This document shows positions 935-54,254 of a stretch of 60,024 nucleotides of DNA, piece by piece. Below the pieces are notes generated by a model. That model was not told the origin of the DNA, searched no databases, and was given only the letters and a program-made list of their open reading frames with translations. The DNA is from Nitrospirota bacterium. Its GTDB lineage: Bacteria > Nitrospirota > 9FT-COMBO-42-15 > HDB-SIOI813. The stretch lies in contig JACRGV010000120.1 of the NCBI GenBank assembly GCA_016212215.1, forward strand, positions 1-60,024. The letters are read 5' to 3'. Position numbers and translations under genes: made by a program. How positions within the stretch are numbered: position 1 is the first letter of the stretch; each line of letters starts with the position of its first letter.

Positions 935-2263
935 TCACACATACTGCCCTGCCGCAAACCCGGATGCCCATGCCCAGTGGAGGTTATAGCCGCCTAATTG
1001 GCCTGTGACATCTGTTACTTCGCCGGTGAAAAAGAGGCCGTGGACTTTATTTGACTCCATTGTCTTGGATGATAGTTCTTCAGTGTCAATGCCGCCGCTT
1101 GTTACCTCGGCCTTTTTAAACCCTTCAGTACCGGATGGAGTTATTGTCCAATTGTGAATCTGTTGTGCGATGTTTCTGAGTTCCTTGTCTGAATACTGGT
1201 TAAGCATTTTTTGATTTATGTAAGATTCACAAAATGCACGGCTAAAACGGTCAGGGAAGAATTGAGATAACAGGGTGCTGATCATCATTCTGCTTTGCCT
1301 GTTTGATGTGAGGATGTCCATAATATTTGTGTCAGGCATCAGATTGATCTGAATCTTCTCATTCGAAGATGACCGTAGCTCACCCCCACCCTGACCCTCC
1401 CCCGTCAAGGGGGAGGGGATTTTGGGTGTTTCACCAGAATTATAATACAGTGAGGCATTCAGGATTGCCGGACCGCTTAATCCCTTATGGGTGAATAGGA
1501 TATTTCCTCTGAATGTACGCTTGTTGTATGTGACTAATGCATCAATTGATATGCCGCTTAGTTCCTTGAATATCCTGAACTCATCTGAGCTGAACATAAG
1601 CGGGACTAATGCAGGCTTTGCATGGATAGTATTAATCCCGAACTGTTTTGCAACAGTGTAGCCAAAGTCTGTTGCACCTATGGCCGGATAAGATAAGCCG
1701 CCGGTGGCGATAACCAATGACTCTGATTCAATAGTTCCCGAATTTGTTTTTATCTGAAAGGGGGTTTTACCGGAAGAAAACCCCATCCCCACCCTAACCC
1801 TCCCCTTGAAGGGGAGGGAATTTTCCTCTCCCTCAGGGAGAGGATTAATGTGAGGGTGGGGTTTTAACTCCTCAACCCTGCAATTTAATGCTATCTGTAC
1901 ATTAACCTTTTCACATTCATTGAGCAGCATCTTTATAATTGCGGCTGAGCCATCCTTACAAAACATCTGTCCTTCTTCTTTTTCATAATAACGGACATTA
2001 TGTTTATCTAAGAGTTCAATGAAATGATTAGGGGTGAAACGGGCAATGGCCGACTTACAAAAGTGGGGATTGTTTGATAGATAATTTTTATCGCTTATAT
2101 TTAAGTTGGTAAAATTACAGTACCCGCCTCCTGAAATACGGACCTTCTCAGCAGGCCGTTTTGCATGGTCAATAATAATAACTGAACGATTACGCCTTCC
2201 TGCCTCAATGGCACACATCAGGCCGGATGCGCCTGCACCGATAATTACAACGTCTTTTTGCAT
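935..2263 (-). CDS. HI0933-family FAD-dependent flavoprotein (BaiN-like)
   Basis: A 442-residue flavoprotein. It has an N-terminal Rossmann dinucleotide-binding motif (VVIIGAGASGLMCAIEAGRR, residues about 5-24), the family-typical RISGGGYCNFTN segment, a second ATGGLSYPAIGATDFGY motif, and a C-terminal GEVTDVTGQLGGYNLHWAWASG FAD-binding signature. Family members are cytosolic FAD oxidoreductases, mostly of unknown substrate. It is longer than the usual ~400 residues because two GC-rich palindromic repeats are read through in frame. One gives KPHPHINPLPEGEENSLPFK (about residues 134-160), the other IPSPLTGEGQGGGELR (about 280-296). The FAD-binding motifs are intact, so the protein may still fold if the inserts lie in loops. 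Confidence 0.85.
   Translation of the reverse strand: MQKDVVIIGAGASGLMCAIEAGRRNRSVIIIDHAKRPAEKVRISGGGYCNFTNLNISDKNYLSNNPHFCKSAIARFTPNHFIELLDKHNVRYYEKEEGQMFCKDGSAAIIKMLLNECEKVNVQIALNCRVEELKPHPHINPLPEGEENSLPFKGRVRVGMGFSSGKTPFQIKTNSGTIESESLVIATGGLSYPAIGATDFGYTVAKQFGINTIHAKPALVPLMFSSDEFRIFKELSGISIDALVTYNKRTFRGNILFTHKGLSGPAILNASLYYNSGETPKIPSPLTGEGQGGGELRSSSNEKIQINLMPDTNIMDILTSNRQSRMMISTLLSQFFPDRFSRAFCESYINQKMLNQYSDKELRNIAQQIHNWTITPSGTEGFKKAEVTSGGIDTEELSSKTMESNKVHGLFFTGEVTDVTGQLGGYNLHWAWASGFAAGQYV
1376..1430. repeat. GC-rich palindromic repeat, type B, inside flavoprotein gene
   Basis: Core CCCTCCCCCGTCAAGGGGGAGGG is an inverted repeat around GTCAA. The unit is preceded by TAGCTCACCCCCACCCTGA. It is related to copies at 8466-8520, 23128-23165, 25284-25322, 40229-40274, 48345-48405 and 48955-49033. 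It is read in frame by the host gene as PSPLTGEGQGGGEL. Confidence 0.8.
1781..1866. repeat. Composite palindromic repeat, type A, inside flavoprotein gene
   Basis: Two small palindromes in tandem: CTCCCCTTGAAGGGGAG and CTCTCCCTCAGGGAGAG. Both sit within an outer inverted repeat, CCCCATCCCCACCCT against GAGGGTGGGG. It differs by only a few bases from the copy at 28973-29057, which sits inside an unrelated gene and is read in the same frame relative to the repeat. Confidence 0.85.
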
Positions 2264-12218: not shown

Positions 12219-12353
12219 ATTATTACCCTCATAACACAGGATTCAAGGGGGCGGTTAACATAGCCCCCTGAAGCTGTGAAAGTCCAGTATAACAGTATGG
12301 GTATTAATTTTCAATAGAATTTAATGCCGCTAAAATATAGGTAGGAAACCCTT

Positions 12354-12536: not shown

Positions 12537-13144
12537 TACTTTGCCTTTATGCCCTCAATATCCAGGGTTATCATAACATCATCACCGACTACCAACCCGC
12601 CGTTATCAAGCACCTTGTTCCATACCATACCAAAATCCTTACGATTGATCTTACCGCTTGCTGAGAAACCTGCGCGAGTGCTACCCCATGGGTCCTTACT
12701 GACTCCATTAAGATTTCCAACAAGGGTAATCTCTTTTGTTATACCACGAAGGGTTAAATCACCTAACACAGTGTATACATCCCCTGTTTTTTTGTAACTC
12801 TTCATCTTAAATGTCATGGTCGGGTACTTTTTTACATCAAAAAAATCCGGCCCCTTGAGGTGGGTATCACGCTTTTTATGATTCGTACTAACGGAAGCAG
12901 TTTTGATATTGGCCTCAAGTGACTTAACGGTTACAGTATCGGGGTCAATATCAATAAAACCTGTAAAATCCATAAACCTTCCGGTGGTCTTTGAAACCGT
13001 CATGTGCGTCACACTGAACCCCACTGTTGAATGGTCCGGGTCAACATTATAACGTGCCATCTCCGCGTGAACCAGACCTGCCGGAACTGAAATTAATAAG
13101 GACAACATAAATACCAACAATGTAAGAAACTTCGAGAGTTTCAT
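12536..13144 (-). CDS. YceI-family periplasmic lipocalin-like protein
   Basis: A 202-residue secreted protein. The chosen ATG at 13144 follows GAAAGGGG and starts a clear signal peptide (MKLSKFLTLLVFMLSLLISV...VHA, about 27 residues). The mature part has the YceI signature: YNVDPDHSTVGFSVTHMTVSKTTGRF, MTFKMKSYKKTGD, GDLTLRGITKEITL and the final VMITLDIEGIKAK. YceI proteins form a beta barrel that binds isoprenoid or other lipophilic ligands in the periplasm. The specific ligand is unknown. It is not part of the neighbouring glutamate synthase or cas operons; a MITE separates it from the former. Confidence 0.9.
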   Translation of the reverse strand: MKLSKFLTLLVFMLSLLISVPAGLVHAEMARYNVDPDHSTVGFSVTHMTVSKTTGRFMDFTGFIDIDPDTVTVKSLEANIKTASVSTNHKKRDTHLKGPDFFDVKKYPTMTFKMKSYKKTGDVYTVLGDLTLRGITKEITLVGNLNGVSKDPWGSTRAGFSASGKINRKDFGMVWNKVLDNGGLVVGDDVMITLDIEGIKAK

Positions 13145-13472: not shown

Positions 13473-13654
13473 AGGGCTTGCCAAAAAATAACTGTTACAT
13501 CTTGCATCTCATCTCCGTGCCATCTTTGGCCGTGCCTCAATCGCAAAATCCTCAACGTAGTTATTACTACGCCTACGGTTTTGCTCAATCGGCACAACCA
13601 ATTCTGACCCGAATCTGAGCGCAATATCGTTACACTTATTTTTTGACAAACCCT
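13473..13654. mobile_element. MITE-like element, copy 2, inserted at the cas2 stop codon
   Basis: Ends AGGGCTTGCCAAAAAATAAC and TTATTTTTTGACAAACCCT. The interior is divergent but alignable with copies at 12354 and 43085 (shared ACTACGCCTACGGTTTTGCTCAATC). The terminal base overlaps the cas2 TAA (13654-13656). This copy separates cas2 from the leader-like region. Confidence 0.7.
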
Positions 13655-21881: not shown

Positions 21882-23018
21882 ATGAACTTTGAAAGAATAC
21901 TTACCCCCCTGATTATTGTCATAATTATCATCAGCATTTATCAGGCATACAATATCCATGCAGAAAATGAGACTCCTCAGGAGACACCGCAACAGGCCGT
22001 CACAGAAGTAACAAAGCCTTTGCCCCCTGCAGAAAATACATCAGCCATTCCACCGGCAGAGGGAACGCAACCTATGCCTACGATGGAAACAAGTGCATTA
22101 CCTCCGATTGAATTAACAACTCTTATTATTCCAAAAGAGGGGGCATTCATGATTCCACCTCCTCCTGACAGAAAAAAGGGGTTTGTTGGAGCGGAAAAGT
22201 GCATAAGCTGTCATGAAAAACAACATACCCAATGGAGTAAAACTATCCATGCAAGATGGAAAAAGAGTTTCATCCCTGCAGGAAAGGAAAAGGAAGAAAA
22301 AAGAATAGATTGCGAAACATGTCATGGACCAGGAAGTCTGCATATCAATAATACTAAGGAGCGTTTGTTTATAATATCTTATGGTCCGATGTCAAAAGAT
22401 ACCAGAGAAGAACAGAATAATTCCTGTATTATATGTCATAATCAAGGGAGTCTGTTTTACTGGAATGATAACATGCATGGAAAAACAATGACCTGTACTG
22501 AATGTCATCAGGTTATGAAGAATGTAACAATGAAGAATTTATTGAAGCAAACTTCAATAAAGGAGACCTGCCTTAAGTGCCATGCAGAAAAAAAGAGTAA
22601 AGCTATGCATTCACCACATCTTTCACAGGATGAGGGAAAGATGTCGTGTTCTACATGTCATTCACCGCATGGGTCCGACACACCCGGGCTGCTAAGATCA
22701 TCTTCTGTAAATGAGAACTGCCTTAGCTGTCATTCAGACAAAAGAGGGCCTTATCTTTTTGACCATCTTCCGGTGCAGGAAAACTGCCTTCTGTGCCATG
22801 ATGCACATTCCTCCATTAACAGCCGGCTTCTGAAGATGCGTCAACCTTATCTATGCCTTGAATGTCATACTAATCTGCCGAAGAATCTTCCTGATAATAT
22901 TGATGCGCATGATGTGTTAAACCCCAAGAGCAGGTTTACTTACAACAGGGGCTGTATGAATTGTCACCCGATGATACATGGTTCAAGACATCCCTCCGGT
23001 GCCGGCCTGCAGAGATAA
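21882..23018 (+). CDS. Decaheme c-type cytochrome, MtrA/DmsE-like
   Basis: A 378-residue cytochrome with ten CxxCH heme-binding motifs between about residues 105 and 364 (CISCH, CETCH, CIICH, CTECH, CLKCH, CSTCH, CLSCH, CLLCH, CLECH, CMNCH). The N-terminus has a hydrophobic segment (ILTPLIIVIIIISIYQAY) serving as signal or anchor, then a proline/glutamate-rich linker of about 75 residues that is unusual for MtrA. In known porin-cytochrome systems such a protein threads an outer-membrane barrel and carries electrons out of, or into, the periplasm. The next gene is the barrel. No outer-surface MtrC/OmcA-like cytochrome lies adjacent. Confidence 0.9.
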   Translation: MNFERILTPLIIVIIIISIYQAYNIHAENETPQETPQQAVTEVTKPLPPAENTSAIPPAEGTQPMPTMETSALPPIELTTLIIPKEGAFMIPPPPDRKKGFVGAEKCISCHEKQHTQWSKTIHARWKKSFIPAGKEKEEKRIDCETCHGPGSLHINNTKERLFIISYGPMSKDTREEQNNSCIICHNQGSLFYWNDNMHGKTMTCTECHQVMKNVTMKNLLKQTSIKETCLKCHAEKKSKAMHSPHLSQDEGKMSCSTCHSPHGSDTPGLLRSSSVNENCLSCHSDKRGPYLFDHLPVQENCLLCHDAHSSINSRLLKMRQPYLCLECHTNLPKNLPDNIDAHDVLNPKSRFTYNRGCMNCHPMIHGSRHPSGAGLQR

Positions 23019-23025
23019 ATCAGAT

Positions 23026-25263
23026 ATGAAAAAGTTACTGATCATATTCATTATCATCCTGTTTATTCCAAATATTGTACTTTGCGATGATGGGTCCGGT
23101 GAGACTGTTTCAACACCTGCAGAGTCACCCTCCCCCTCACCCCCTCCAGTCAAGGGAGGGGGGATTATTTCAGAAACCACTCCCGCCAGGGAAGAAGGTA
23201 AGGAACAACCCGCTGCACCCACACCTGCTGAAACCACAGTCAAAGAGCCTACTTTTGAGAATATTTCTATCATGGATATTTCAGGTAAGTTTCAGGACAT
23301 GAAGATTTTTACGGATTCTCCTAAGTCAAGAGAATATAAGACTATACCGGAGGGAACTTATATAGATAATTTCCATTTCATTTTGGGATCAGGGACTCAG
23401 GAGATTTCGGGAAATGCAGGGAATATCAAACCACTGACCAATCTTAATCAGGATGGCTACTGGAACTTAAGTTACAGGAAATATGGTTTGCTCGATGTGG
23501 ATACCGGTCTTAACAGATTTATCAGGACTTATGATGGATCAGGGACTTCATCAACTGATAGTTCTAATATCTTAAAGACAAGGGATATCAATAATATATC
23601 TGTAGAGTTTAGGCCGGGTGACAAGCTCATTATTACTACGAGGCTATCTGTAGAGGAGAGTAACGGGAGAAGCCCGGTTAGCTTTGAAAACTTTACAAAA
23701 CAATCCGGCGTACCCCGAACAGCAATAAGAGAAATTACTGAACCAAAAGATTACAAGACCACAACAATCGGTATAAATATGGAGTACATAGATGATAGTG
23801 TAGACATCCAGCTTGACAACAACTTCGATATATTTACCAACAGACTGACAGATGACATCACATGGGCAAATCTTTTTAAAGGATCGGATGGAAGGGCAAA
23901 AGGGGCGGGAGATTATACAGTTCACACATTATCCTTACGGCCATCCATAAAATTATCAAATAATATTACATTCTATAACACTCTATCTTTTAGCAAAGTC
24001 ACAAGCACTATTGACCTGATTCCTTTTACAACTATCCCTGATGTAGGCGGTGAATTTCTGCGTAATAAGATTGATTCAGACGTAAGAAACCTTACATTAT
24101 CTACGGCGCTTAGTGCAAAACTTTTTTCAAACCTGAGATTCAATATAAAATACAGGCATTATGCCCATAAAAATGATACCCCGAATGCAAAGGAAACACC
24201 TTCATACATAATGATAGATGGGGGCGATGGTAAGGATGGAGGAGTAAATGCAATAAGGTATCCAAGGATAGCGAGATATACCGCCTACTACACAGACAGT
24301 ATTATTCTTGACGGGACATGGTCTCCCGCAAGCCGGTTATACCTTAATACCTTGATAGAAAATAAGGATACCTCACGGGATGAAAGGGAGGTAGAAAAGG
24401 AAAATGAGAAAAAGGCACAGGTAACTATGCGAACCGTTATCCTCAACTCCTTGGCCACAAATTTAGGATATACTTATTCAAAAAGGACGGGTAAGTATGA
24501 CCCCACATATTACAATGCAATCTATGACCCTGATACTTTAAATACCGTTACTCAACATACACTATTACGGACTTTTGATCTCTCTGAACTTGCCTCTCAA
24601 AAAATATCTGCAGGCATAGATTATTCCCCCATTGAGGCATTTTCATTAGGATTAAACTTTTCTTACCTCTTAGAAGAACACAACAATGTTACTATCGGCA
24701 GGATAAGGTCTCAGGGAACATCCGGTTCTGTGTCCCTCCAGATTGAACCTTTTACATTCCTGCAGTTCTATACAGAGTATTATTATGACAAAAAGAAAAC
24801 AACAGGAAGATATAGCTGGACTTATGACAACAATCTAAGTTATACAAAAGATACTAAATATACCGGGTTCACTAAACCTATTACCGGTATCCTTGAAGAT
24901 ACTTCAAATGTATTAACAGCAGGATTTAATATTAAGCCGGGTAAAAGATTCTCAATAAAAGGGGACTACAGCAAGTATGATTTCGCCGGTGCGGACTCTA
25001 AACTGCCTGAGGTCAGCAATATTACCGACACTTATGAAGTTTACATCTCTGCAAAACTCAGAAAAGAACAGGAAGACAGCAGCGATTCGGAAAAGTATTT
25101 AAAAAATGCAAGTATAACAGCCGGATATTACATGGAAAGATACGTGAGAAGCGACTACGCTCTTGATAATTTTCCTGACACAGGCCCTGATAAATTCATA
25201 GGAATCAGAGAGCCTTCTTATAAATACCGACTTATATCACTTTATATGAGTGTTTATTTTTAG
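23026..25263 (+). CDS. MtrB/PioB-family decaheme-associated outer-membrane beta barrel
   Basis: A 745-residue protein. The start at 23026 (MKKLLIIFIIILFIPNIVLC) gives a signal peptide; it lies 7 bases after the cytochrome stop. After a low-complexity segment, the remainder alternates aromatic and polar residues with many Tyr/Asp/Gly turns and ends SLYMSVYF, a terminal Phe typical of outer-membrane barrels. Segments such as GYWNLSYRKYGLLDVDTG and FSLGLNFSYLLEEHNN fit MtrB strands. Near residues 27-42 a palindromic repeat is read in frame (SPSPSPPPVKGGG), just after signal cleavage where it may be tolerated. Confidence 0.85.
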   Translation: MKKLLIIFIIILFIPNIVLCDDGSGETVSTPAESPSPSPPPVKGGGIISETTPAREEGKEQPAAPTPAETTVKEPTFENISIMDISGKFQDMKIFTDSPKSREYKTIPEGTYIDNFHFILGSGTQEISGNAGNIKPLTNLNQDGYWNLSYRKYGLLDVDTGLNRFIRTYDGSGTSSTDSSNILKTRDINNISVEFRPGDKLIITTRLSVEESNGRSPVSFENFTKQSGVPRTAIREITEPKDYKTTTIGINMEYIDDSVDIQLDNNFDIFTNRLTDDITWANLFKGSDGRAKGAGDYTVHTLSLRPSIKLSNNITFYNTLSFSKVTSTIDLIPFTTIPDVGGEFLRNKIDSDVRNLTLSTALSAKLFSNLRFNIKYRHYAHKNDTPNAKETPSYIMIDGGDGKDGGVNAIRYPRIARYTAYYTDSIILDGTWSPASRLYLNTLIENKDTSRDEREVEKENEKKAQVTMRTVILNSLATNLGYTYSKRTGKYDPTYYNAIYDPDTLNTVTQHTLLRTFDLSELASQKISAGIDYSPIEAFSLGLNFSYLLEEHNNVTIGRIRSQGTSGSVSLQIEPFTFLQFYTEYYYDKKKTTGRYSWTYDNNLSYTKDTKYTGFTKPITGILEDTSNVLTAGFNIKPGKRFSIKGDYSKYDFAGADSKLPEVSNITDTYEVYISAKLRKEQEDSSDSEKYLKNASITAGYYMERYVRSDYALDNFPDTGPDKFIGIREPSYKYRLISLYMSVYF
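23128..23165. repeat. Type B palindromic repeat inside the MtrB-like gene
   Basis: ACCCTCCCCCTCACCCCCTC followed by CAGTCAAGGGAGGGGGGAT, the same unit as at 8466-8520. It is read as PSPSPPPVKGGG near the mature N-terminus. Confidence 0.75.
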
Positions 25264-28615: not shown

Positions 28616-29995
28616 TTAGTTCAATGACTCATCCAAAAGTTCTACCGTATGTTTTACCTCAGCATTATACCCTAATCTGTTCAAAGAATCCTCAATATGT
28701 ATAGCACATCCGGGACAGCCTGTGGCAACTATTTTTGCACCTGTTTTTTTAATATTCTCTGCCTTCTTCTCTCCTATCTGAGAGGCAAGGTCGTAGTGAT
28801 AAACACTGAATATGCCGCCGAAACCACAGCAGGCATCCGAATCTTCCATATTTACAAAGTCAACAGAGGGGATAGACTTCAGAATATCTCTTGGTTCCTG
28901 ATAAATGCCAAGCCCCTTTTTCAGGTGGCAGGGATCGTGGAAGGTGACGCGGTTTGTTTCATTCGGAAATGACCCCATCCCCACCCTAACCCTCCCCTTG
29001 AAGGGGAGGGAAATTTCCTCTCCCTCAGGGAGAGGATTAAGGTGAGGGTGGGGTTTTTCATCCCTGTTTGTAAATTGCCTGCTCCTAAGCGGTTCAAAGA
29101 TAAACTCATGTACGTCTGTTATTTTATCCGAGAATGCCTGAACATCAAATCCCCCTTCGCCCCCCTTTTCTAAAGGGGGGGATAATAGTACTGGATACTC
29201 CTTCTTCAGCATATTTCCGCATGTTGCACACGAAACAACTATCGCCTCTACGTTCAGCTTAGAAAAAATCTTAACATTCTTCCTTGCCAGTTTCTTTGCC
29301 GTTTCCCTATCCCCGAGTGAAAGTAACGGACTGCCGCAGCAAAACTGTCCTTTCGGGATTATAACATCATAGCCCAGCTTATTCAGTACGCTTATAGTTG
29401 CCTTGCCCATTGCCTGCTTGCTCAGCTCCATAACACAACCGGGATAAAAAGCAACCGTACCTTTTTTATTTGCCTTGGTTGTCCTTATAAGCTCAGGATA
29501 TAAAGAACTCAGCGGCGGACTCCCTATTTCAGGGAGTTTGCGTTTTATATTTTTCCGGACAAACGGGATAGCATTGCTAAACAGCCCGTTTACCGGAAGC
29601 ATCTCATAAATCTTTACAGGAACAGACATCATCCTTGCCATCAACGGCAAAGGCCATCTGAGTCTTAATACTATCTTTGAGGCAATCTTCTCAATAATTC
29701 CAAGCCCTGATTTATCAGCTATATGGGCCTTTGCAGCAAATATAATCTCACTTACCTTTACACCTGTAGGGCAATTTGTATCACAGGTCAGACAACCAAT
29801 ACATGACGTTATCATCCCCTCAAACCGTTCTGTAGTCTCAATACGGCCGTCAAGTACCGCACCGACAAGATTTATCCTCCCGCGTGCAACCATAGTCTCG
29901 TCCCGTGTAATCCCAAACGTAGGACATCCGGTCATGCAGGTACCGCACTTTATGCACTTGTAAATCTCGTCTTTGACTGATGATAGGTAGTTCAT
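28616..29995 (-). CDS. GlcF-like Fe-S oxidoreductase subunit (CCG domains)
   Basis: A 459-residue protein with two [4Fe-4S] motifs at the N-terminus (CIKCGTCMTGCPTFG and CIGCLTCDTNCPTG) and two CCG (cysteine-rich) domains (CVMELSKQ...FCCGSPLLSLGD; DPCHLKKGLG...DACCGFGG). It resembles the iron-sulfur subunit of glycolate or lactate oxidase and HdrD-type proteins. No FAD subunit (GlcD) lies adjacent. Two repeat inserts are read in frame: SPPLEKGGEGGFD (about residues 273-285) and KPHPHLNPLPEGEEISLPFK (about 313-340). The cysteine motifs on both sides are intact. Confidence 0.85.
   Translation of the reverse strand: MNYLSSVKDEIYKCIKCGTCMTGCPTFGITRDETMVARGRINLVGAVLDGRIETTERFEGMITSCIGCLTCDTNCPTGVKVSEIIFAAKAHIADKSGLGIIEKIASKIVLRLRWPLPLMARMMSVPVKIYEMLPVNGLFSNAIPFVRKNIKRKLPEIGSPPLSSLYPELIRTTKANKKGTVAFYPGCVMELSKQAMGKATISVLNKLGYDVIIPKGQFCCGSPLLSLGDRETAKKLARKNVKIFSKLNVEAIVVSCATCGNMLKKEYPVLLSPPLEKGGEGGFDVQAFSDKITDVHEFIFEPLRSRQFTNRDEKPHPHLNPLPEGEEISLPFKGRVRVGMGSFPNETNRVTFHDPCHLKKGLGIYQEPRDILKSIPSVDFVNMEDSDACCGFGGIFSVYHYDLASQIGEKKAENIKKTGAKIVATGCPGCAIHIEDSLNRLGYNAEVKHTVELLDESLN
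28973..29057. repeat. Composite type A repeat inside the GlcF-like gene
   Basis: Near-identical to 1781-1866: CTCCCCTTGAAGGGGAG and CTCTCCCTCAGGGAGAG with CCCCATCCCCACCCT outer arms. It is read in frame as NPLPEGEEISLPFKGRVRVG. Confidence 0.85.
29148..29186. repeat. Type C repeat inside the GlcF-like gene
   Basis: CCCCCCTTTTC-TAAAGGGGGGG palindrome with AATCCCCCTTCG flank, read as SPPLEKGGEGGF. The same unit is intergenic at 56068-56104. Confidence 0.75.
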
Positions 29996-33962: not shown

Positions 33963-34047
33963 AATTATTAACGCAGGTTTTATGCCTTATTAGAAAGGGA
34001 GTTATTAGGGATTTTTATCTAAGCAAGAAGAGAATTACGTATGTCCC
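33963..34047. repeat. ~85-bp direct repeat, left copy
   Basis: ATTATTAACGCAGGTTTTAT, then TTAGAAA, GGGATT, TATCTAAGCAAGAAGAGAAT and TACGTATGTCCC. It recurs at 38614-38696 in the same orientation with a few mismatches. The two copies flank a 4.6-kb accessory block. Confidence 0.8.
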
Positions 34048-34070
34048 AGGTTAACTACCAAAATTTCTGA

Positions 34071-36072: not shown

Positions 36073-37356
36073 ATGAAAAAAGATATTTTTAAAAGGATCA
36101 TTACAGATTTCAAGGAAAAAGACCTGTCCTATGTAATGGGAAGAGATATTGCAATCCCTTTGGACACCGGCAAAATCATATCCCTGATCGGCGTGAGAAG
36201 AAGCGGGAAGACCCATGTCCTTTTCTCACTGATAAAGCAAATAAAGAAGACTGTCGCCCCGGAAAATATCCTCTATATCAACTTTGAAGATGACAGGCTC
36301 TTTCCTATTGAGCTGAAAGATCTGAGTGATATGCTGGATGCATATTATGAGATGTATCCTGATAAGAAGAGTGAAAAGGTATACTTCTTCTTCGATGAAA
36401 TCCAGAATGTTGAAAATTGGGAAAAGTTCGTACGCCGGCTGTATGACTCTGAAAAATGCGTAATTTTTATAACAGGTTCATCGGCGAAATTATTGAGCAG
36501 GGAGATCGCTACGGCCCTCCGTGGAAGGACATTGAGCTACGAGGTGTTTCCTCATTCGTTCAGCGAATTTCTGAGGTTTAAGGGGATTAAGGCGGACATG
36601 CATTCTTCCAGATCAATTGCGAAAATCAGAAACACCTTTTCGGAATATCTTGTAAAAGGCGGATTTCCTGAGGTTATCAATTATGATCAGTCGTTGTACG
36701 TGAAGACATTGCAGGAATATATAGATCTTATCACGTACAGGGACATCATCGAACGTCACAAGATTACAAACACATTTCTTCTTAAGCGGCTTATGAAATT
36801 TTGTTTTACCAATATCTCAACGCATGTGAGCTTCAATAAACTCTATAATGATTTCAAGTCCGAGGGGCTCAATCTTTCGAGGAATACGGTTTATGAATAT
36901 ATCTCCTATCTTGAGGATGCTTTTGCGTTGTTTACCATACCACTATACGCCAAATCCGTCAGGGAACAGTGGAGGAACCCGAGAAAGATTTACAGTGTAG
37001 ATGTCGGATTTAAGACCGCGATGGACTATCCTTTTTCCATAGATACCGGCAGGATTTTCGAGAATATCGTTTTTCTTGAGCTGAGAAGAAAAACAGAGAA
37101 TATATATTACGTTAAAGGAAGGTATGAAGTAGACTTCTATTATATTTCCGGAGGGGAAGAGCACCTGCTTAATGTAAGCTATGATCTGGAATCTCCGGCA
37201 ACAAGAGAAAGAGAAATCAGGGGATTAACAGAGGCAATGAAAAAGTTCTCTATAAAAGAGGGGAGCATAGTAACAGCAGAGAACAAAGAAACAATAAAAA
37301 ATGAGGATGGAACTATTCATATAGTCCCGTTATGGGAATGGCTGTTGATAAATTAG
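36073..37356 (+). CDS. AAA ATPase with DUF4143 C-terminal domain (copy 1)
   Basis: A 427-residue ATPase: Walker A GVRRSGKTHV (about residue 43), Walker B FFFDEIQNVENW (about 113), sensor segment FITGSSAKLLSREIATALRGR, then a winged-helix and DUF4143 region (IYSVDVGFKTAM, FENIVFLELRRK, VDFYY). These proteins are common in accessory regions of bacteria and archaea; function is unclear. GGAGGG precedes the ATG. The last 57 bases of this gene recur at 40963-41019. Confidence 0.85.
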   Translation: MKKDIFKRIITDFKEKDLSYVMGRDIAIPLDTGKIISLIGVRRSGKTHVLFSLIKQIKKTVAPENILYINFEDDRLFPIELKDLSDMLDAYYEMYPDKKSEKVYFFFDEIQNVENWEKFVRRLYDSEKCVIFITGSSAKLLSREIATALRGRTLSYEVFPHSFSEFLRFKGIKADMHSSRSIAKIRNTFSEYLVKGGFPEVINYDQSLYVKTLQEYIDLITYRDIIERHKITNTFLLKRLMKFCFTNISTHVSFNKLYNDFKSEGLNLSRNTVYEYISYLEDAFALFTIPLYAKSVREQWRNPRKIYSVDVGFKTAMDYPFSIDTGRIFENIVFLELRRKTENIYYVKGRYEVDFYYISGGEEHLLNVSYDLESPATREREIRGLTEAMKKFSIKEGSIVTAENKETIKNEDGTIHIVPLWEWLLIN

Positions 37357-37412
37357 GAACATCCCAAAACCTAAGCTATTGTGTCCCCGAAGGAAGTATC
37401 GTATCTACTTGC

Positions 37413-37462: not shown

Positions 37463-38614
37463 ATGATTCAGAGACTGGAAATCGGGAAACATATTCAGCG
37501 GGCTATTAAACGGAGCCGGGCTGTTGCCCTTGTTGGCCCCCGTCAGTGCGGTAAAACCACTTTAGCCAGGGAATTTGTTGACAGCGCCTCTATTAATTAT
37601 TTTGATCTGGAAGACCCGGAAAGCATCGTCCGCCTTGCTGATCCCATGACAGCGCTTGCACCGTTAAAAGGTATTGTGGTTATTGATGAAATTCAGCGGC
37701 GCCCGGATCTTTTCCCGGTTTTGCGTGTTCTGTTAGACCGCAAACCCCTGCCTGCCAAATTCCTTATCCTGGGAAACGCATCGCCGGATTTATTACAACA
37801 GTCTTCAGAATCACTGGCCGGGCGTATTGAGATAATCGTGATGGGCGGCTTCGGGCTTAATGAGGTAGGGATAAAGAATGAATCCCGTCTTTGGCTGCGG
37901 GGAGGTCTCCCATTGTCATTCCTGGCCAGGAATGAACCGGAAAGTTTTACATGGAGAAAGAGTTTTATTCAAATGTTTCTTGAACGTGACCTGCGGCAAC
38001 AGGGAATTAATATCCCCCCTGTATCTTTGCACCGGTTTTGGACAATGTTAGCTCACAGTCATGGTCAGATATGGAATGCCGCGCCCATTGCAAGTTCGTT
38101 GGGTATCTCTGAGCATACTGTCCGGCGCTATCTGGATATTTTGACCGGCGTGTTCATGGCCCGCCAGCTTCAGCCGTGGCATGCGAACATCAAAAAGCGC
38201 CAGGTGAAAGCTCCTAAAGTTTATATCCGGGACACAGGGATACTTCATGCGTTATTAGGTTTGAAGAACGTGTCGGAGACCTTGAAACATCCCCGCTGCG
38301 GTTCATCATGGGAGGGATTCGTAATCGAGGAGGTTATCAGATCTGTTGACCCTGATGATGTATATTTCTGGGCAACTCATAACGGTGCGGAGATTGATCT
38401 GGTTTTTTCAAAGAATGGACGCATGTACGGCATTGAGTGCAAACGCGCGGATGCTCCTGATTTGACTCCATCCATGCGGATTGCCCTTGAGGATATTGAA
38501 CTTGAACGTATCGCTGTCATATACACCGGAGAAAAACGCTATCCGCTTCATAAAAAGGTAGAGGTTATTCCATTCGAAACGATCACGGGCGGAATGAGAG
38601 AAATATTCAAATAA
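37463..38614 (+). CDS. AAA ATPase with DUF4143 C-terminal domain (copy 2)
   Basis: A 383-residue ATPase of the same superfamily but another subgroup: Walker A GPRQCGKTTLAREF (about residue 25), Walker B IVVIDEIQRRPDLFPVLRVLLD, the LGNASPDLLQQSSESLAGR sensor, then a helix-turn-helix (ISEHTVRRYLDIL) and DUF4143 (KVYIRDTGILHALLG, SWEGFVIEEVI, AEIDLVF). The ATG at 37463 (MIQRLEIGKHIQRAI) is favoured over upstream starts that lie within an inverted repeat. It stops exactly at the right copy of the ~85-bp direct repeat. Confidence 0.85.
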   Translation: MIQRLEIGKHIQRAIKRSRAVALVGPRQCGKTTLAREFVDSASINYFDLEDPESIVRLADPMTALAPLKGIVVIDEIQRRPDLFPVLRVLLDRKPLPAKFLILGNASPDLLQQSSESLAGRIEIIVMGGFGLNEVGIKNESRLWLRGGLPLSFLARNEPESFTWRKSFIQMFLERDLRQQGINIPPVSLHRFWTMLAHSHGQIWNAAPIASSLGISEHTVRRYLDILTGVFMARQLQPWHANIKKRQVKAPKVYIRDTGILHALLGLKNVSETLKHPRCGSSWEGFVIEEVIRSVDPDDVYFWATHNGAEIDLVFSKNGRMYGIECKRADAPDLTPSMRIALEDIELERIAVIYTGEKRYPLHKKVEVIPFETITGGMREIFK

Positions 38615-38696
38615 TTATTAACGCAGGTTTTATACCTTGTTAGAAAAGAAGATATTAGGGATTCTTATCTAAGCAAGAAGAGAATTACGTATGTCC
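38614..38696. repeat. ~85-bp direct repeat, right copy
   Basis: ATTATTAACGCAGGTTTTAT, TATCTAAGCAAGAAGAGAAT, TACGTATGTCCCC; see 33963-34047. The TACGTATGTCCCCGGAATT tail resembles strings often seen at RAYT-type element borders (from memory). Confidence 0.75.
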
Positions 38697-38924
38697 CCGG
38701 AATTAGTAAAATCAATCAGTCCACTTTTACTTTGTCCTCTCCTTAAGGGAGGCTCCCAGCCATACAAATCGGAAAGTATCTTTTTGGAAATTGCTTCTAA
38801 AGGAACAATTTCTTTTAATGAATTAAAGAGAACGCTATTCTTTAACAAACGCATTACCTTGTTTTTCTGGCATTTGACATGCTATGTAATTCACTGTAAT
38901 ATAATGAAATGCAAGGGGGTGTGT

Positions 38925-39344
38925 ATGTCCACTATCCAGAAGAGTTTGAGAATTCCGGAAAAGATTATTAAGGAAATAGAAGTAATCGCAACTACATCAG
39001 GGAAAGACTTTACTGCCGTCGCAAATGAACTGCTCGATGAAGCTGTCAGGACTCACCGTTGTCCTAGTATTGTATTTTCTGAAGGCACCAGCGGGAAAAG
39101 GGCTCGGATTGCTGGAACAGGAATTGAGGTTTGGGAGATTATTGCAACTTATAATAGTGTGGCAAATGACATCAAACGCCTGAGTAAGGCATACCACTGG
39201 CTTACAGAACAACATCTGAAGTCGGCTTTATTGTATTACAAACTTTATAAAGATGAAATAGACAGACTTATTGCAAGGAACGAAGATTTGACGCCGGAAG
39301 AAATCCGTAAAAGACATCCTGTCCTATCTGCGGATAAACAGTGA
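38925..39344 (+). CDS. DUF433-like antitoxin with N-terminal ribbon-helix-helix
   Basis: A 139-residue protein. The N-terminus (KSLRIPEKIIKEIEVIATTSGKDFTAVANELLDEAV) looks like a ribbon-helix-helix DNA-binding segment; the C-terminal half (SGKRARIAGTGIEVWEIIAT, then LTEQHLKSALLYYKLYKDEI) is DUF433-like. Such proteins precede DUF5615 PIN-like toxins, as here, with a 4-bp overlap. GGGGGTGTGT precedes the ATG. Confidence 0.75.
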   Translation: MSTIQKSLRIPEKIIKEIEVIATTSGKDFTAVANELLDEAVRTHRCPSIVFSEGTSGKRARIAGTGIEVWEIIATYNSVANDIKRLSKAYHWLTEQHLKSALLYYKLYKDEIDRLIARNEDLTPEEIRKRHPVLSADKQ

Positions 39345-39685
39345 AATATTATCTGGATGAAGACTTAAGCCCTAAGATTGCAGAGATACTTAGGAGGGGA
39401 GGCATGGATGCGGTCAGTGCCCATGAGGTTGGCATGACTCAGGTAAGTGACCTTGAGCAGCTAAAATATGCATCCTCTGAAAAGCGCTGCGTTGTAACAA
39501 GAAACCGCAATGATTTTATAAAACTTACAGTACAATTCTTTAATGAAAATAGTCCGCACTCAGGTGTTCTGATAGTCCCTCACTCATATCCCGGAGACCA
39601 ATTTAATGTAATAGCAAATGCCTTGAAAAAGTATGCATTGGAGCATAAAGAAGATATGGAGCCTTATACAGCAGACTTTCTGTAA
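39341..39685 (+). CDS. DUF5615 PIN-like toxin
   Basis: A 114-residue PIN-fold protein: MKYYLDEDLSPKIAEILRRGGMDAVSAHE with the first acidic residues (DED) and VVTRNRNDF with the next Asp. DUF5615 proteins are putative ribonucleases of type II toxin-antitoxin pairs. Its ATG overlaps the DUF433 antitoxin stop. Confidence 0.8.
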   Translation: MKYYLDEDLSPKIAEILRRGGMDAVSAHEVGMTQVSDLEQLKYASSEKRCVVTRNRNDFIKLTVQFFNENSPHSGVLIVPHSYPGDQFNVIANALKKYALEHKEDMEPYTADFL

Positions 39686-40228: not shown

Positions 40229-40274
40229 AAATAATTTCCCTCCCCCTTGACGGGGGAGGGTCAGGGTGGGGGTG
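40229..40274. repeat. Type B palindromic repeat upstream of the DUF559 gene
   Basis: AATTTCCCTCCCCC then TTGACGGGGGAGGGTCAGGG and TGGGGGTGA; the nuclease ATG (40280) follows 5 bases later, so the repeat supplies the purine-rich translation start region. Confidence 0.8.
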
Positions 40275-40279
40275 ATTCT

Positions 40280-40768
40280 ATGGGAGATAAGATAACAACA
40301 TTGGGGAAAGCCATCAGGAAAAGACCTACAGATGCGGAACAATTGCTATGGAGTCACTTAAGGATGAAACAGATGGCAGGATTAAAATTCAGAAGGCAAC
40401 AGCCTATAGGCAAGTACATAGTTGATTTTGTTTGCTTTGAGAACCGCATTATTATTGAAGTTGATGGCGGACAGCATGCGGGAGAAAAGAATAAGGATAT
40501 AGAAAGAGATGCATACCTTCAACGATTTAGGTTTAAGATTATAAGGTTCTGGAATAATGAGGTGTTACAAAATACAAATGAAGTCTTAGCGGTAATAAGG
40601 GAGAATTGCTTATATCACCCTCCCCTTACCCCCTCCTGCCTCCCCCTGCTAGTGGGGGAGAGATTAAGGAAGGGAAATAATTATAGCCCTCCCGTCAAGG
40701 GAGGGGAGAATTACCCACTCGGAATGAAAAAGAAGCAATTTGTGAAGGAGGATTCCGCTATAGTTTAA
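40280..40768 (+). CDS. DUF559 endonuclease-like protein bracketed by palindromic repeats
   Basis: A 162-residue protein. Residues about 1-115 form a DUF559 domain, a Vsr/PD-(D/E)XK-like nuclease fold: AIRKRPTDAEQLLWSHLR, LKFRRQQPIGKYIVDFVCFE, IIIEVDGGQHAGEK, FKIIRFWNNEVL. The acidic residues D (VDFV) and E-x-D (EVDGGQH) fit the PD-(D/E)XK pattern. The last 45 residues (HPPLTPSCLPLLVGERL, SPPVKGGENYPL) come from read-through of downstream palindromic repeats. Both flanks are repeats of the families dispersed through this window. No methyltransferase is nearby, so it does not look like restriction-modification. A role in repeat mobility is my hypothesis. Confidence 0.85.
   Translation: MGDKITTLGKAIRKRPTDAEQLLWSHLRMKQMAGLKFRRQQPIGKYIVDFVCFENRIIIEVDGGQHAGEKNKDIERDAYLQRFRFKIIRFWNNEVLQNTNEVLAVIRENCLYHPPLTPSCLPLLVGERLRKGNNYSPPVKGGENYPLGMKKKQFVKEDSAIV
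40617..40716. repeat. Palindromic repeats forming the 3' end of the DUF559 gene
   Basis: CACCCTCCCCTTACCCCCTC, a degenerate CTCCCCCTGCTAGTGGGGGAG hairpin, and CCCTCCCGTCAAGGGAGGG. The last is inverted in sense relative to the upstream unit at 40229-40274. They are read in the nuclease frame. Confidence 0.75.
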
Positions 40769-40962
40769 GCATTGAAAGCCTCCCTGGTTGCTCTGCAGGG
40801 CAATACAGAGCGATATAATCATAAACTGGATACATCATTCTATATAATTGCTTTTGAAAGTAGTTAGTAGATTGAAAAGTCACAGGTATGCCTTTCTTTG
40901 ATAGCGTGGATGCACTAAATTATCCTTTTTGGGGCAAATTAAATTATCCCTACAGAGGATGG

Positions 40963-41019
40963 AACTATTCATATAGTCCCGTTATGGGAATGGCTGTTGA
41001 TAAATTAGGAACATCCCAA
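40963..41019 (+). repeat. 57-bp duplicate of the 3' end of ATPase copy 1
   Basis: GAGGATGGAACTATTCATAT, AGTCCCGTTATGGGAATGGC, TGTTGATAAATTAGGAACAT, CCCAA is the same as 37303-37360 including the stop codon, with no mismatch seen. It marks a second, deleted copy or a recombination event. Confidence 0.85.
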
Positions 41020-43014: not shown

Positions 43015-43084
43015 ATTAATCTGCCATTTGTCAATAAAGATTTTATCCATCTCTTGACACCCGTTATTTTTATCTGCTAACCTA

Positions 43085-43268
43085 AGGGCATGTCATGAAA
43101 TAAGTTGTACATTTAGGCGCTCATATTTCGGTCAGGTTTGAGTGCGACCGATTGAGCAAGCCCGAAGGCGTAGTTGAAACTACGTTGAGGGGTTGCGATT
43201 GAGGAGCACACAAAGATGGCCGGAAGATGAGATGCATAAATGTATAGGTTATTTCATGACAGACCCTA
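43085..43268. mobile_element. 184-bp MITE-like element, copy 3 (inverted orientation)
   Basis: Begins AGGGCATGTCATGAAATAAG and ends TTATTTCATGACAGACCCT. The interior matches copy 1 in reverse complement (GGCCGGAAGATGAGATGCAT). Flanking TAA/CTAAG strings suggest a TA-rich target. Confidence 0.8.
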
Positions 43269-43337
43269 AGCGTGCACTAACATGGAGAATACCTCTGCAG
43301 TTAATCCCACAATATAATTAAAAAATATGGAGGAAAA

Positions 43338-46023: not shown

Positions 46024-46115
46024 AGACAACCCCACCCTCACCCTGACCCTCTCCCTGAGGGAGAGGTAGCAATGGTTATTCCCTCCCCTTCAAGGGGGGG
46101 GGTGGGGATGGGGTT
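46024..46115. repeat. Composite type A palindromic repeat upstream of larE
   Basis: CTCTCCCTGAGGGAGAG and CTCCCCTTCAAGGGGGGG with outer CAACCCCACCCTCACCCTGA and GTGGGGATGGGG arms; the larE ATG follows within 7 bases. Confidence 0.8.
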
Positions 46116-48954: not shown

Positions 48955-49033
48955 GACACTCTCCCGTCAGGTGAGAGGGGGCCATGTTTATCCCCCCTCC
49001 CTTGACGGGAGGGGGTCAGGGGGAGGGTGAGCT
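48955..49033. repeat. Type B palindromic repeat before the thioesterase gene
   Basis: CACTCTCCCGTCAGGTGAGAG and CCCTCCCTTGACGGGAGGG, ending GGGTGAGCTATGG as in the copy before the amidotransferase gene. Confidence 0.75.
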
Positions 49034-49047
49034 ATGGTAACTTCTAT

Positions 49048-50582: not shown

Positions 50583-53500
50583 ATGCGTCTGCGAAAGCTT
50601 GAGATATTAGGATTCAAGACCTTCCCGGAAAAGACCACCCTTCATATACAACATGGAATAACCTGTATAGTCGGTCCCAATGGCTGCGGTAAGAGCAATA
50701 TTGTGGATGCACTTCTATGGGTTATGGGGGAGCAGAGTACCAAGACCCTCAGAGGTGAAAAGATGGAGGATGTCATTTTCTTTGGAAGCGATAGTAGAAA
50801 ATCTATCGGAATGTCCGAGGTGACCATCACTATAGGCGACCTGCACGGGGAGCTTACCTCACAGTATTCTGAATACTCTGAGATAGAGGTCACAAGAAGG
50901 CTCTTCCGTTCAGGTGAGAGTGAATACCTGATCAACAAAGTACCGTGCAGGCTGAAGGATATAAGGGATATTCTTATAGATGCAGGGGTAGGGTTCAAAG
51001 GGCATACAGTTATAGAGCAGGGCAGGGTTGAGAGAATTCTAACATCTACACCTGAAGACCGCCGGGCAATTATCGAAGACACTGCCGGCATCATGAAATA
51101 TAAGTTCAGGAAGACAGAGGCCCTGAGAAAATTAGAGTCTACTCAGCATAATCTCCTAAGGGTCCGCGACATCGTATCAGAGGTAAAAAGACAGATAAAT
51201 TCACTGGACAGGCAGGTGCGGAAGGCAAGGGAATATCAGGAACTTGCCGCAAAGATTAAAGAGCAGGAGCTTTTACTTACGGCTGTTAAATATACAGGGA
51301 TGGATAATGATTTGAAGGCATTACTTCTTAAAGAAGAGGGCGTAAGGGAAGCAGAGATGAAAAATCTGTCGGAACTTGCAGGTATTGAGGCAGAATCAGA
51401 AGAGACAAAATCCCTATTACTCGGTGATGACAGGAAGTTGAACGAGTTACGGGGGACCCTTAACAATCTGGATAAAGAGATCAGTGAAAGCGAGAATAAG
51501 CTGATCGTGATTGAAAACCAGATAACCCATCAGCGGGAAGATGATAAACGATTACACAAAGAGATAACAGAGCTTAAGGAAGATATAATTACGCTAAAGG
51601 CGTCTCTTGAATCACTAAGCAGTGAAAAACTCGCGCTTGAAGAAATACTTTCAAAAGGGGAAACAGGGATTGCTGAGGCTGAAACAAAATATGGACAGGC
51701 AAGTCATGAATTTTCAAGCATTCAGGAGAGATTAGAGAGTGCCCGCTCCAGGGTGTTCGGCACTGTTGGAAAGGTTACTGAGGTAAAAAATAAACAGAAT
51801 TATATTCAATCCAGGATTTTTGAGATCAATAGAAGAAAAGAGCGAATTACAAGTGAGAAGGAGGAAAACTCCAATACTATATCAGGAACCATTGAACGGA
51901 TGATGTCTAAGGAAGAGTCTGAGAGGCACTTAAATGCCGGTCTTGCTGAAAAGTCAGACTCAAAATTACTATTATCTGAACAGCTTGCAGTAACAGAAAA
52001 TTCAATATCAGGATTAACGGATAAACTTAACAGCAGGCGTGAATTACTCCACCGCAGTGAGGCAAGATTTCATTCCCTTGAAGAGATGGAGAAAAACCTT
52101 GTCGGCTATCAGGAAGGCGTAAGGACGATCCTACTGTCAAAGTCCAAAGAGGGTGCATCTTTTCAGGGTATTCAAGGTATTGTCGCTGATTTCTTTGATG
52201 TGAAGTTCAACCTCCCTCCCCTTCAAGGGGAGGGCTGGGGTGGGGATGGGGTTTTCCCTGATGAAAAAACCGCTGAGATGGTTATTGAATCCGTCCTCGG
52301 CGACCGTTTGCAAAATATCGTAGTTGAAGGCCATGAAAATACAGAAGCGGCTATTGCCTATTTAAAAACAAACTCTGCCGGAAGAACAACATTTATACCT
52401 TCAAAACCCCGCCCTAACCCTCTCCCCTTAGGGGAGAGGGTTAGGGTGAGGGGGAGCTCAGGTGAAAACGGCATTATTGGCCCTGCACTTGCCTTTGTGG
52501 ATTATAAAGAAGAGTATAAGCCCCTTGTAGAACATCTACTTTCAGATGTAGTTGTTGTAGATAACCTGAAGAACGCCATTACCCTTTGGAATGAAGATAA
52601 TAATTGTACCTTTGTAACGTTGGATGGCGAAATTGTGGAACCATCTGGACGTATAACAGGCGGTACATCAAATGGCAAGTCCCCGGGACTAATCCAGAAA
52701 AGAAAAGAACTTAAAACACTTCAAAATGAGGTCATCAAATTAAAGCGGGAGACCTCAGAGCTTGAAGGAGAGCTTGAAAATCTAAAGCAGGACAAGGGTA
52801 ATTTCCAGCAGCAGATAGTTGAATTAAACGACCTGATACGCAAGGATGAGATAGCGATTGTAAATATTGAAAAAGACATCCATGTACTTAAAGATGACGA
52901 GAAGAAGGTACAACTACGGTTAGAGACACTGCTTATTGAAGAAAACGAGATTAACAGCGAGATTGTTTCTTTATCCACAGACTTAAATAAATATGAAACA
53001 GAGATTCAGGGGCTTGTAACTGAACAATCAGCAGGTGAGAAGGAGATACAGGAGCTTATAGAGATACAAAAGACAGCGAGGCTGCATTGGGAAGAGGCAC
53101 AAAGGGAGATTACCTCAAGGAAGTTAGAGATTACAACAAGCAGAGAGAGACGGGATGCCATATCCCATCGTATTAAAGAGATTGAGGGGCGCATTGAGAT
53201 TGCAGTGCGTTCTATTGATGAGAAGGGGTTATACCTGAATACGATAGGACAAAAGATAGATAGTTATAATTCTGAGAAGACTGAGATTGAGTCAGCGATA
53301 ACAATCCTGTGGCAGAAAAAGGAGACACTTTCTAAAGAGATTGTAAGCATGGAAGATGAACGGGCACATAAAGAAGAGGGCCTGAATATTTCAGAAACAG
53401 GTATTAAGGAAAAAAGAAATATAATTGATGAATTAAAGCAGATATTAAACCAGTGTGAGGTACAAAAGACCGAGATACGCCTGCAAATGACCCATTTATG

Positions 53501-54254
53501 TGAAACAATATTCAATACCTATCAACTTGCCTTAGAAGAAGAGATTAAGAAATTATCAACTGAAGAAATTAATACTGAAGAGATGACAGGGGCGCTGACT
53601 GCTCTAAAAGAGCGGGTGAACAGGATGGGGCCGATTAATATGGCATCCATTGAAGAATATCAGGAATTAAACCAGAGATATGAATTTCTGACTACTCAGG
53701 AAGCAGACCTCACGCAGGCATGTGAAACCCTGCATGAGACTATTTCAAAGATAAATAAGACAACAAAAGAGATGTTCTTAACGACATTCAATATTATTAA
53801 TGAAAAATTCCAAAACCTGTTTCAGATGTTTTTCCAGGGCGGCAGTTCAAGGCTTGTGCTTACAGATGAATCAAATGTACTGGACTCCGGTATTGAGATA
53901 TTTGCCCAGCCTCCGGGTAAAAAGGTAAGCCAGTTAGCCCTGTTATCCGGAGGTGAAAAAGCCCTTACAGCCCTGTCACTTATATTTGCAACCTTCCTCG
54001 CCAGACCTACACCCTTCTGCGTGCTTGATGAAATTGATGCACCGCTTGATGAGGGAAATACCGAGCGTTTTATAAATACACTTCGAGACATGACCGCTTT
54101 TTCACAGTTCATTGTAATTACTCATAACAAACGGACAATGGAGGCCGGTGATACACTTTATGGTATTACAATGGAAGAACCCGGTGTCTCAAGGATTGTG
54201 TCTGTCAATCTTACAAGGAGAGAAGAAGAGACTCCAATGCTTGTTGCAGTCTGA
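50583..54254 (+). CDS. smc: Chromosome segregation ATPase SMC
   Basis: A 1223-residue SMC: N-terminal Walker A VGPNGCGKSNIVDAL (about residues 31-45), long coiled coils (about 170-500 and 690-1030), a hinge (about 515-685, IQGIVADFF...GRTTFIP...VVVDNLKNAI), and C-terminal LLSGGEKALTALSLIFA signature plus Walker B FCVLDEIDAPLDE. It condenses and segregates the chromosome with ScpAB, which are not here. Two palindromic repeats are read in frame within the hinge: FNLPPLQGEGWGGDG (about 541-555) and PRPNPLPLGERVRVRGS (about 607-623). Confidence 0.95.
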   Translation: MRLRKLEILGFKTFPEKTTLHIQHGITCIVGPNGCGKSNIVDALLWVMGEQSTKTLRGEKMEDVIFFGSDSRKSIGMSEVTITIGDLHGELTSQYSEYSEIEVTRRLFRSGESEYLINKVPCRLKDIRDILIDAGVGFKGHTVIEQGRVERILTSTPEDRRAIIEDTAGIMKYKFRKTEALRKLESTQHNLLRVRDIVSEVKRQINSLDRQVRKAREYQELAAKIKEQELLLTAVKYTGMDNDLKALLLKEEGVREAEMKNLSELAGIEAESEETKSLLLGDDRKLNELRGTLNNLDKEISESENKLIVIENQITHQREDDKRLHKEITELKEDIITLKASLESLSSEKLALEEILSKGETGIAEAETKYGQASHEFSSIQERLESARSRVFGTVGKVTEVKNKQNYIQSRIFEINRRKERITSEKEENSNTISGTIERMMSKEESERHLNAGLAEKSDSKLLLSEQLAVTENSISGLTDKLNSRRELLHRSEARFHSLEEMEKNLVGYQEGVRTILLSKSKEGASFQGIQGIVADFFDVKFNLPPLQGEGWGGDGVFPDEKTAEMVIESVLGDRLQNIVVEGHENTEAAIAYLKTNSAGRTTFIPSKPRPNPLPLGERVRVRGSSGENGIIGPALAFVDYKEEYKPLVEHLLSDVVVVDNLKNAITLWNEDNNCTFVTLDGEIVEPSGRITGGTSNGKSPGLIQKRKELKTLQNEVIKLKRETSELEGELENLKQDKGNFQQQIVELNDLIRKDEIAIVNIEKDIHVLKDDEKKVQLRLETLLIEENEINSEIVSLSTDLNKYETEIQGLVTEQSAGEKEIQELIEIQKTARLHWEEAQREITSRKLEITTSRERRDAISHRIKEIEGRIEIAVRSIDEKGLYLNTIGQKIDSYNSEKTEIESAITILWQKKETLSKEIVSMEDERAHKEEGLNISETGIKEKRNIIDELKQILNQCEVQKTEIRLQMTHLCETIFNTYQLALEEEIKKLSTEEINTEEMTGALTALKERVNRMGPINMASIEEYQELNQRYEFLTTQEADLTQACETLHETISKINKTTKEMFLTTFNIINEKFQNLFQMFFQGGSSRLVLTDESNVLDSGIEIFAQPPGKKVSQLALLSGGEKALTALSLIFATFLARPTPFCVLDEIDAPLDEGNTERFINTLRDMTAFSQFIVITHNKRTMEAGDTLYGITMEEPGVSRIVSVNLTRREEETPMLVAV
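52205..52256. repeat. Type A repeat inside the SMC hinge (first)
   Basis: CCTCCCTCCCCTTCAAGGGG then AGGGCTGGGGTGGGGATGGGG; read as NLPPLQGEGWGGDGV. Confidence 0.8.
52408..52456. repeat. Type A-related repeat inside the SMC hinge (second)
   Basis: CCCTAACCCTCTCCCCTTAG and GGGAGAGGGTTAGGGTGAGG form an almost perfect palindrome; read as PNPLPLGERVRVR. Confidence 0.8.

Follow-up and report, generated by a model that had tools for sequence, protein, structure and literature searches.

Does a DUF559 endonuclease gene that is bracketed by dispersed palindromic repeats spread these repeats? This question is raised by a 60,024-nt stretch of DNA from a Nitrospirota bacterium (the window), for which the initial annotation proposed, by analogy with RAYT transposases and the REP sequences around them, that the nuclease mobilises the flanking palindromes. 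The features on which our answer is based are compiled in Table 1.

Table 1. Positions of the DUF559 unit and of solo repeats in the window.
Feature	Position	Strand	Remarks
Left outer terminal inverted repeat, GCTTCTTTCTTATAATGAGTGGGGAAA	40205..40231	+	common to own-genome copies L002, L004-L006 and L009
Upstream triplex-motif repeat	40238..40272	+	hairpin CCCTCCCCC-TTGAC-GGGGGAGGG, spacer TCA, mirror tail GGGTGGGGG
DUF559 / COG2852 Vsr-like PD-(D/E)XK nuclease gene	40280..40768	+	ATG 40280, stop 40768; domain 40289-40606
Downstream triplex-motif repeat, inverted	40616..40706	-	tail 40616-40628, hairpin 40687-40706
Right outer terminal inverted repeat, TTACCCACTCGGAATGAAAAAGAAGC	40711..40736	-	local alignment of flanks
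Solo single repeat in HI0933-like flavoprotein gene (935-2263, -)	1365..1436 (edges approximate)	-	in-frame, 24 residues
Solo tails-out repeat pair in the same gene	1780..1865		in-frame, 28-residue insertion
Solo tails-out repeat pair in CCG-domain (GlcF-like) gene (28616-29995, -)	28972..29057		in-frame
A/T-rich type repeat in the same gene	29148..29180	-	takes the place of the relatives' variable loop, +24 nt
Intergenic repeat cluster	46032..46112		
Solo repeat with extended tail, GTGAGCTATGG	48990..49037	+	
Repeat in SMC hinge region (gene 50583-54254)	52214..52246	+	second copy 52418-52452

The nuclease gene and the anatomy of its flanking repeats

The encoded protein matches DUF559 (PF04480) with an E-value of 1.8e-39, ORF residues 5-109 covering profile positions 3-107 of 109 (Pfam). 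Residues D49, E60, D62 and H66, which correspond to a catalytic-type D, ExD and H, are invariant in 64 homologues. The AF2 model of the protein has a pLDDT of 85.7 and finds its best structural match in 3hrl, a solved DUF559 protein (VIA Z 16.2). Second-best is the homing endonuclease I-Bth0305I (3r3p, Z 11.6), to which the sequence is also related with an E-value of 2e-4; the Z score to Vsr (1cw0) is 9.5, and the match to TnsA of Tn7 is weak (Z 6.6). The predicted fold is that of a Vsr-like PD-(D/E)XK nuclease, in agreement with the initial annotation.

The tail of the upstream repeat is directed into the DUF559 gene, with 7 bases separating the repeat and the ATG, and its DNA fold is calculated at -10.8 kcal/mol. 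A nested palindromic insert of 53 nt (about 40629-40686) interrupts the downstream repeat; among the own-genome copies it is present in L004, L006 and L011 and missing from L002, L003, L005, L010 and L015. The final ~54 codons of the gene run through this inverted, split repeat. That the gene directly follows a repeat and that its end is made of repeat sequence had both been noticed at the outset, and both descriptions hold. A 65-nt stretch occurs with 100% identity at 37303-37367 and 40955-41019, the latter copy lying downstream of the DUF559 unit. Adjoining DUF433 and DUF5615 (PIN-like) genes at 38691-39685 are neighbours of the unit and resemble a toxin-antitoxin pair. An 88-nt repeat (92%) is located at 33963-34050 and 38613-38700, and its second copy immediately precedes the DUF433 ORF at 38691.

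Across loci the repeats share one layout. Two arms, the 5' one rich in pyrimidines and the 3' one rich in purines, enclose a short loop; then come a spacer and a gene-directed tail that is the mirror of the hairpin's 3' arm. The spacer between hairpin and tail has 3 nt in 80 of 87 perfect cases and mostly follows YTR. Among mirror-filtered repeats 661 of 664 G positions of the arm face a tail G, and of 182 A positions 177 face either A (103) or T (74); altogether 838 of 846 arm-tail positions obey G.G, A.A or T.A triads. Without the filter, 47 of 87 asymmetric arms have a perfect mirror, compared with 6.7 on average and 15 at most when tails were swapped 500 times. Reading the tail as a direct repeat was rejected, since the mirror is better in 62 of the 87 and the direct repeat in 10. 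Judged by base sequence, the pairing of arm and tail is that of the antiparallel purine triplex rule. By its hairpin, 3-nt spacer and purine-triplex mirror tail the repeat is thus identified as the known BoxC/PIT/'TM' intrastrand triplex motif. At the loci L092, L101 and L132 a second hairpin replaces the 3-nt spacer, as though the loop tolerates insertions; a spacer with a hairpin of its own would be expected of a tail that folds back over it.

Knowledge of the BoxC/PIT/TM repeats, which mark unstable loci, dates back to the 1990s. Besides Holder et al. (2015), Hoyne and Maher are to be named for these intrastrand triplex motifs. The window repeat has the same build as the BoxC/PIT/TM motif, a hairpin with a third strand mirroring the purine arm, and a BoxC-type sequence is present at the Escherichia coli ycjD locus. 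E. coli MG1655 contains 23 copies and the motif occurs in more than 260 bacteria, dispersed and sometimes in inverted pairs, with TTA or CCG as spacer and a third strand that mirrors the purine arm (PMC4666352). Holder et al. (2015) demonstrated in vitro that the E. coli motif forms a triplex; triplex repeats are tied to instability, and neither a mobility gene beside them nor a functional link was ever found (PMC4666352). The present repeats differ in that they enclose DUF559 and follow it from genome to genome. Hence, the repeat class is already known; the apparent novelty lies in its tie to DUF559. No literature tying DUF559 to repeats of this type was found in the sources covered, among which subscription journals are mostly missing. 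The initial annotation was right about dispersed palindromes but overlooked both the known triplex motif and the stem-mirroring tail. At gathering thresholds, the window contained no match to an Rfam family. A rule by which each DUF559 gene has one T-type and one C-type spacer, as in E. coli pairs, was discarded (25 mixed vs 20 same, p 0.46).

Solo repeats as insertions

A strict scan for hairpins with a mirror tail detected 17 repeats in the 60-kb window and 0 in block shuffles. Several of these 17 places are intragenic, as the first description of scattered repeats had stated; the genes concerned are 935-2263, 22978-25263, 28616-29995 and 50583-54254. Both insertions in the HI0933-like gene are missing from 8 relatives, one of them of the same genus, and the pair in the CCG-domain gene is missing from the relatives G001, G002, G004, G005 and G006. 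Such in-frame insertions in conserved genes support mobility of the repeats. The solo inserts in window genes end near the repeat itself, and neither a target duplication nor a precise end was established for solo repeats. The peptide encoded by the paired unit is found again at dozens of sites in the same genome. A 191-nt MITE-like sequence is present in two inverted copies (12348-12538 and 43083-43273) that are 95% alike and carry internal terminal repeats AGGGTCTGTCAT; partial relatives of it lie at 13503-13592.

In the own genome 20 of 23 solo pairs are arranged tails-out. Other loci and the window together gave 12 vs 12, so that a universal tails-out bias of solo neighbours was rejected and is not claimed here. 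A solo tails-out pair looks like two joined ends of a DUF559 unit. Alignments of Azospirillum strains revealed no repeat insertion. Clean empty sites were also sought for E. coli repeats (gntP-fimH, argE-ppc, ypfG-tkt) and had to be given up: the loci differ by an exchange of the repeat segment for other sequence and not by a clean insertion, and consequently neither a unit boundary nor a target duplication was obtained.

Association of DUF559 with the repeats

The own genome (2.99 Mb, 164 contigs) contains 13 DUF559 matches. All copies with both flanks on the contig (L001-L008) have a repeat on both sides, and fragments at contig ends have one on the remaining side, with the exception of L013, a weak partial match with none. 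L007 and L008 represent a second DUF559 subfamily with a distinct repeat type, CCTCCCCTTTACAAGGGGAGG, which is found as solo copies too. Several own-genome copies are surrounded by outer terminal inverted repeats, GGTTCTTTCTC..GAGTGGGTAAA. Features of the ISL3 type are GGxTCTTC termini, present on several DUF559 copies other than that of the window, and a target duplication of 8 bp, AAGTTTAG, seen at L007 alone. Both L007 (contig C123) and L008 (contig C4) are DUF559 units within ISL3-like ends GGTTCTTCCGGGATTCGT. Since several copies lie inside such ends, another transposase may move them.

Beyond this genome, flanks were surveyed in 80 named loci or genomes from many phyla plus viral contigs. 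A strict repeat within 150 bp is present on both sides of 35 of 81 DUF559 genes compared with 0 of 1,111 control ORFs of similar size from the same loci, and on one side of 24 further genes compared with 22 of the 1,111 controls. A looser inverted-flank score of at least 30 is reached by 63 of 90 DUF559 genes, whereas of 1,613 control positions from these loci 11 reach it. Where a side of a DUF559 gene bears a repeat, the nearest one points its tail inward (105 of 121 sides). The initial annotation held that DUF559 genes without flanking palindromes would argue against its proposal; they form a minority, comprising 22 of the 81 genes, for which a strict repeat within 150 bp is absent, and distant phage-type matches, which have no flanking repeats in the surveyed loci. 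In E. coli ycjD is accompanied by repeats on its downstream side only. The survey also yielded two observations of other kinds. L151 and L152 (Picosynechococcus plasmids) carry dense arrays of short GGGGG-type triplex repeats around DUF559 that differ strongly between the related plasmids. At L248, a second DUF559 gene of Sinorhizobium K101, the downstream flank has another palindromic family, CCCCCTCTGCCCTGCCGGGCATCTCCCCCACAAGGGGGAGAT, with no mirror tail.

Sinorhizobium K101 also provides a block of ~730 bp consisting of a repeat pair, DUF559 and a second repeat pair, flanked by two genes that are direct neighbours in Shinella PSBB067. Because the site is empty in Shinella, the block was gained or lost as a single unit. 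Anatomy and statistics together establish the DUF559-triplex-repeat unit as an entity, one that is either there or missing as a whole block; it is real, and it is mobile.

For the correlation of nuclease and repeat number, a covariance model of the repeat was run on 148 genomes of the phylum that were also searched for DUF559. At least 10 repeats were counted in 38 of 50 genomes with DUF559 and in 8 of 98 without it (p 4e-17); the medians are 25.5 and 0.5 repeats per genome, respectively, with counts saturating near 47. Shuffling the labels within families, to which 138 of the 148 genomes are assigned, gave a mean of 29.4 and a maximum of 37 in 5,000 permutations against the observed 38, and the simpler sign test, with 10 families up and 3 down, gives weak support (p 0.09). 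Relatives without DUF559 from the family to which the window belongs are as repeat-rich as those with it. Across the 148 genomes repeat number follows DUF559, and the repeat-rich genomes without the nuclease that the initial annotation named as counter-evidence do exist, as a minority of 8 of 46. One of them was inspected. G022, a complete DUF559-free genome (L314-L341), carries the triplex repeat inside a MITE bounded by terminal inverted repeats (ends GGGTTTCACAAAATT / AATTTCGTGAAACCC), and no DUF559 remnant was found in this MITE.

The type of repeat also corresponds to the nuclease. Dispersed repeats more than 1 kb off resemble the flanking repeats of their own DUF559 gene more closely than those of other loci (0.654 vs 0.492, 0 of 5,000 permutations). 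Protein distance and repeat distance are correlated as well (r 0.51, permutation maximum 0.22), a correlation that shared descent alone could yield. As an association, the link between nuclease and repeats is strongly supported.

Possible mode of spread and relation to known systems

We regard it as somewhat better than an even chance that DUF559 and the hairpin-plus-mirror-tail repeats constitute one mobile unit in which the nuclease recognises the folded repeat and spreads it. The unit consists of the DUF559 gene between two repeats with inward tails, and each side frequently bears a complete repeat pair. In single-stranded form the repeat could fold into a hairpin, and the tail could be placed as third strand on the purine arm to form an intrastrand triplex. 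The Vsr-like nuclease would recognise this structure at both unit ends and nick or cut beside it, whereby its own unit is mobilised. Acting in trans, it might mobilise solo single and paired repeats in the same manner, and integration would probably be finished by replication or repair enzymes. Of the RAYT/REP-like link proposed initially, the association stands (flanks, genome correlation, co-specificity and block movement), while recognition and cleavage of the repeat hairpin by DUF559, and DUF559 as the cause of the spread, are what we infer from it. Several results count against the nuclease as the spreader of the repeats: the tails-out solo pairs as opposed to the tails-in enclosure of DUF559, the 8 of 46 repeat-rich genomes without DUF559 together with the pattern in the window's own family, and the one-sided repeats of ycjD together with the replacement of E. 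coli repeat segments. The ISL3-like ends and the MITE of G022 indicate that other transposases can carry the repeats too.

Other explanations divide the roles of nuclease and repeats differently. DUF559 might be a homing-endonuclease-like selfish gene for which existing repeats serve as cut sites or homology arms, but we consider this unlikely; the gene would then be copied between repeats by break repair, and something else would spread the repeats. The second-best structural match, I-Bth0305I, would suit such a gene, as would the repeat-rich genomes without DUF559 and the finding that recombination hotspots in evolving Legionella include DUF559 segments (PMC12308824). However, whole tails-in repeats enclose DUF559 rather than the halves of one cleaved repeat, and homing leaves unexplained why repeat number tracks DUF559 and why the repeat type matches. 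That both DUF559 and the repeats are passengers of unrelated DDE transposases acting on outer terminal repeats is more improbable still. The outer repeats on several own-genome copies, the target duplication of L007 and the repeat within the G022 MITE agree with it. Yet the outer ends differ between the own genome and G022, and even between the DUF559 subfamilies of one genome, whereas the part that is constant across phyla is DUF559 with the mirror-tail repeat; moreover, the solo inserts in window genes terminate close to the repeat.

We attach still less probability to DUF559 being a host repair enzyme, either for very-short-patch repair or for clearing triplexes, with the repeats as its substrate or regulator and not mobilised by it. 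The Vsr fold and the instability linked with triplex repeats (PMC4666352) are in line with such a function. In Caulobacter the DUF559 protein VsrA causes DNA damage in vivo upon loss of a cytosine methyltransferase, and its authors propose mismatch repair (PMC12907096). This damage implies that DUF559 members can be active. A housekeeping repair gene, however, would not be expected in many copies (13 matches in one genome), with patchy occurrence and fragmented genes, nor would a whole block be present or absent as a unit. Mobilisation of the repeats by a RAYT (Y1 tyrosine transposase), as for REP, with an incidental DUF559, is nearly refuted and retains hardly any probability. Although Y1_Tnp is found in 105 of the 148 genomes, the own genome is without it (PF01797), and among the 148 genomes it is a poor predictor of repeat richness (odds ratio 2.5, p 0.05); RAYT was therefore rejected as mobiliser.

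Tentatively, and with less assurance than for the nuclease as spreader of the repeats, we propose a class of prokaryotic mobile elements in which a lone Vsr-like PD-(D/E)XK nuclease recognises intrastrand triplexes as element ends and disperses non-autonomous triplex repeats; such a nuclease would be the missing engine of BoxC/PIT/TM in bacteria. The nuclease is the first concrete, named candidate for moving BoxC-type repeats, whose origin and spread lacked an explanation, and the candidate includes the E. coli gene ycjD and the solved structure 3hrl. Should it act on triplexes, transposon ends would be defined here in a novel manner, the enzyme might serve as a structure-specific nickase, and a large domain-of-unknown-function family would be given a function.

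Among known systems, TnsA of Tn7 is likewise a PD-(D/E)XK nuclease and acts in transposition, but no partner transposase is annotated beside the window DUF559. Vsr shares the fold and Caulobacter VsrA the DUF559 domain, whereas the window gene differs from both by its position within a repeat-bounded block. EDxHD homing endonucleases such as I-Bth0305I have a Vsr-like catalytic fold and are single-gene selfish units, a likeness that here is one of fold alone; in contrast to them, the DUF559 unit is without an intron or demonstrated homing site and has constant flanking triplex repeats. Closest in layout are REP/RAYT systems (REPtrons, REPINs, BIMEs), where short inverted palindromes also surround a single nuclease gene and solo and paired copies are dispersed, including within genes. 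Nevertheless, the DUF559-repeat unit works like a REPtron in layout and is not a REPtron, since enzyme, tag and pair orientation differ. Its enzyme is a Vsr-like PD-(D/E)XK nuclease and not a Y1 HUH protein. No GTAG (or CGTC) is found at the hairpin foot; instead, the DUF559 repeats have a YTR-type spacer and a triplex-fitting mirror tail. Finally, the prevailing tails-out orientation of own-genome solo pairs is opposite to the tails-in flanks of DUF559.
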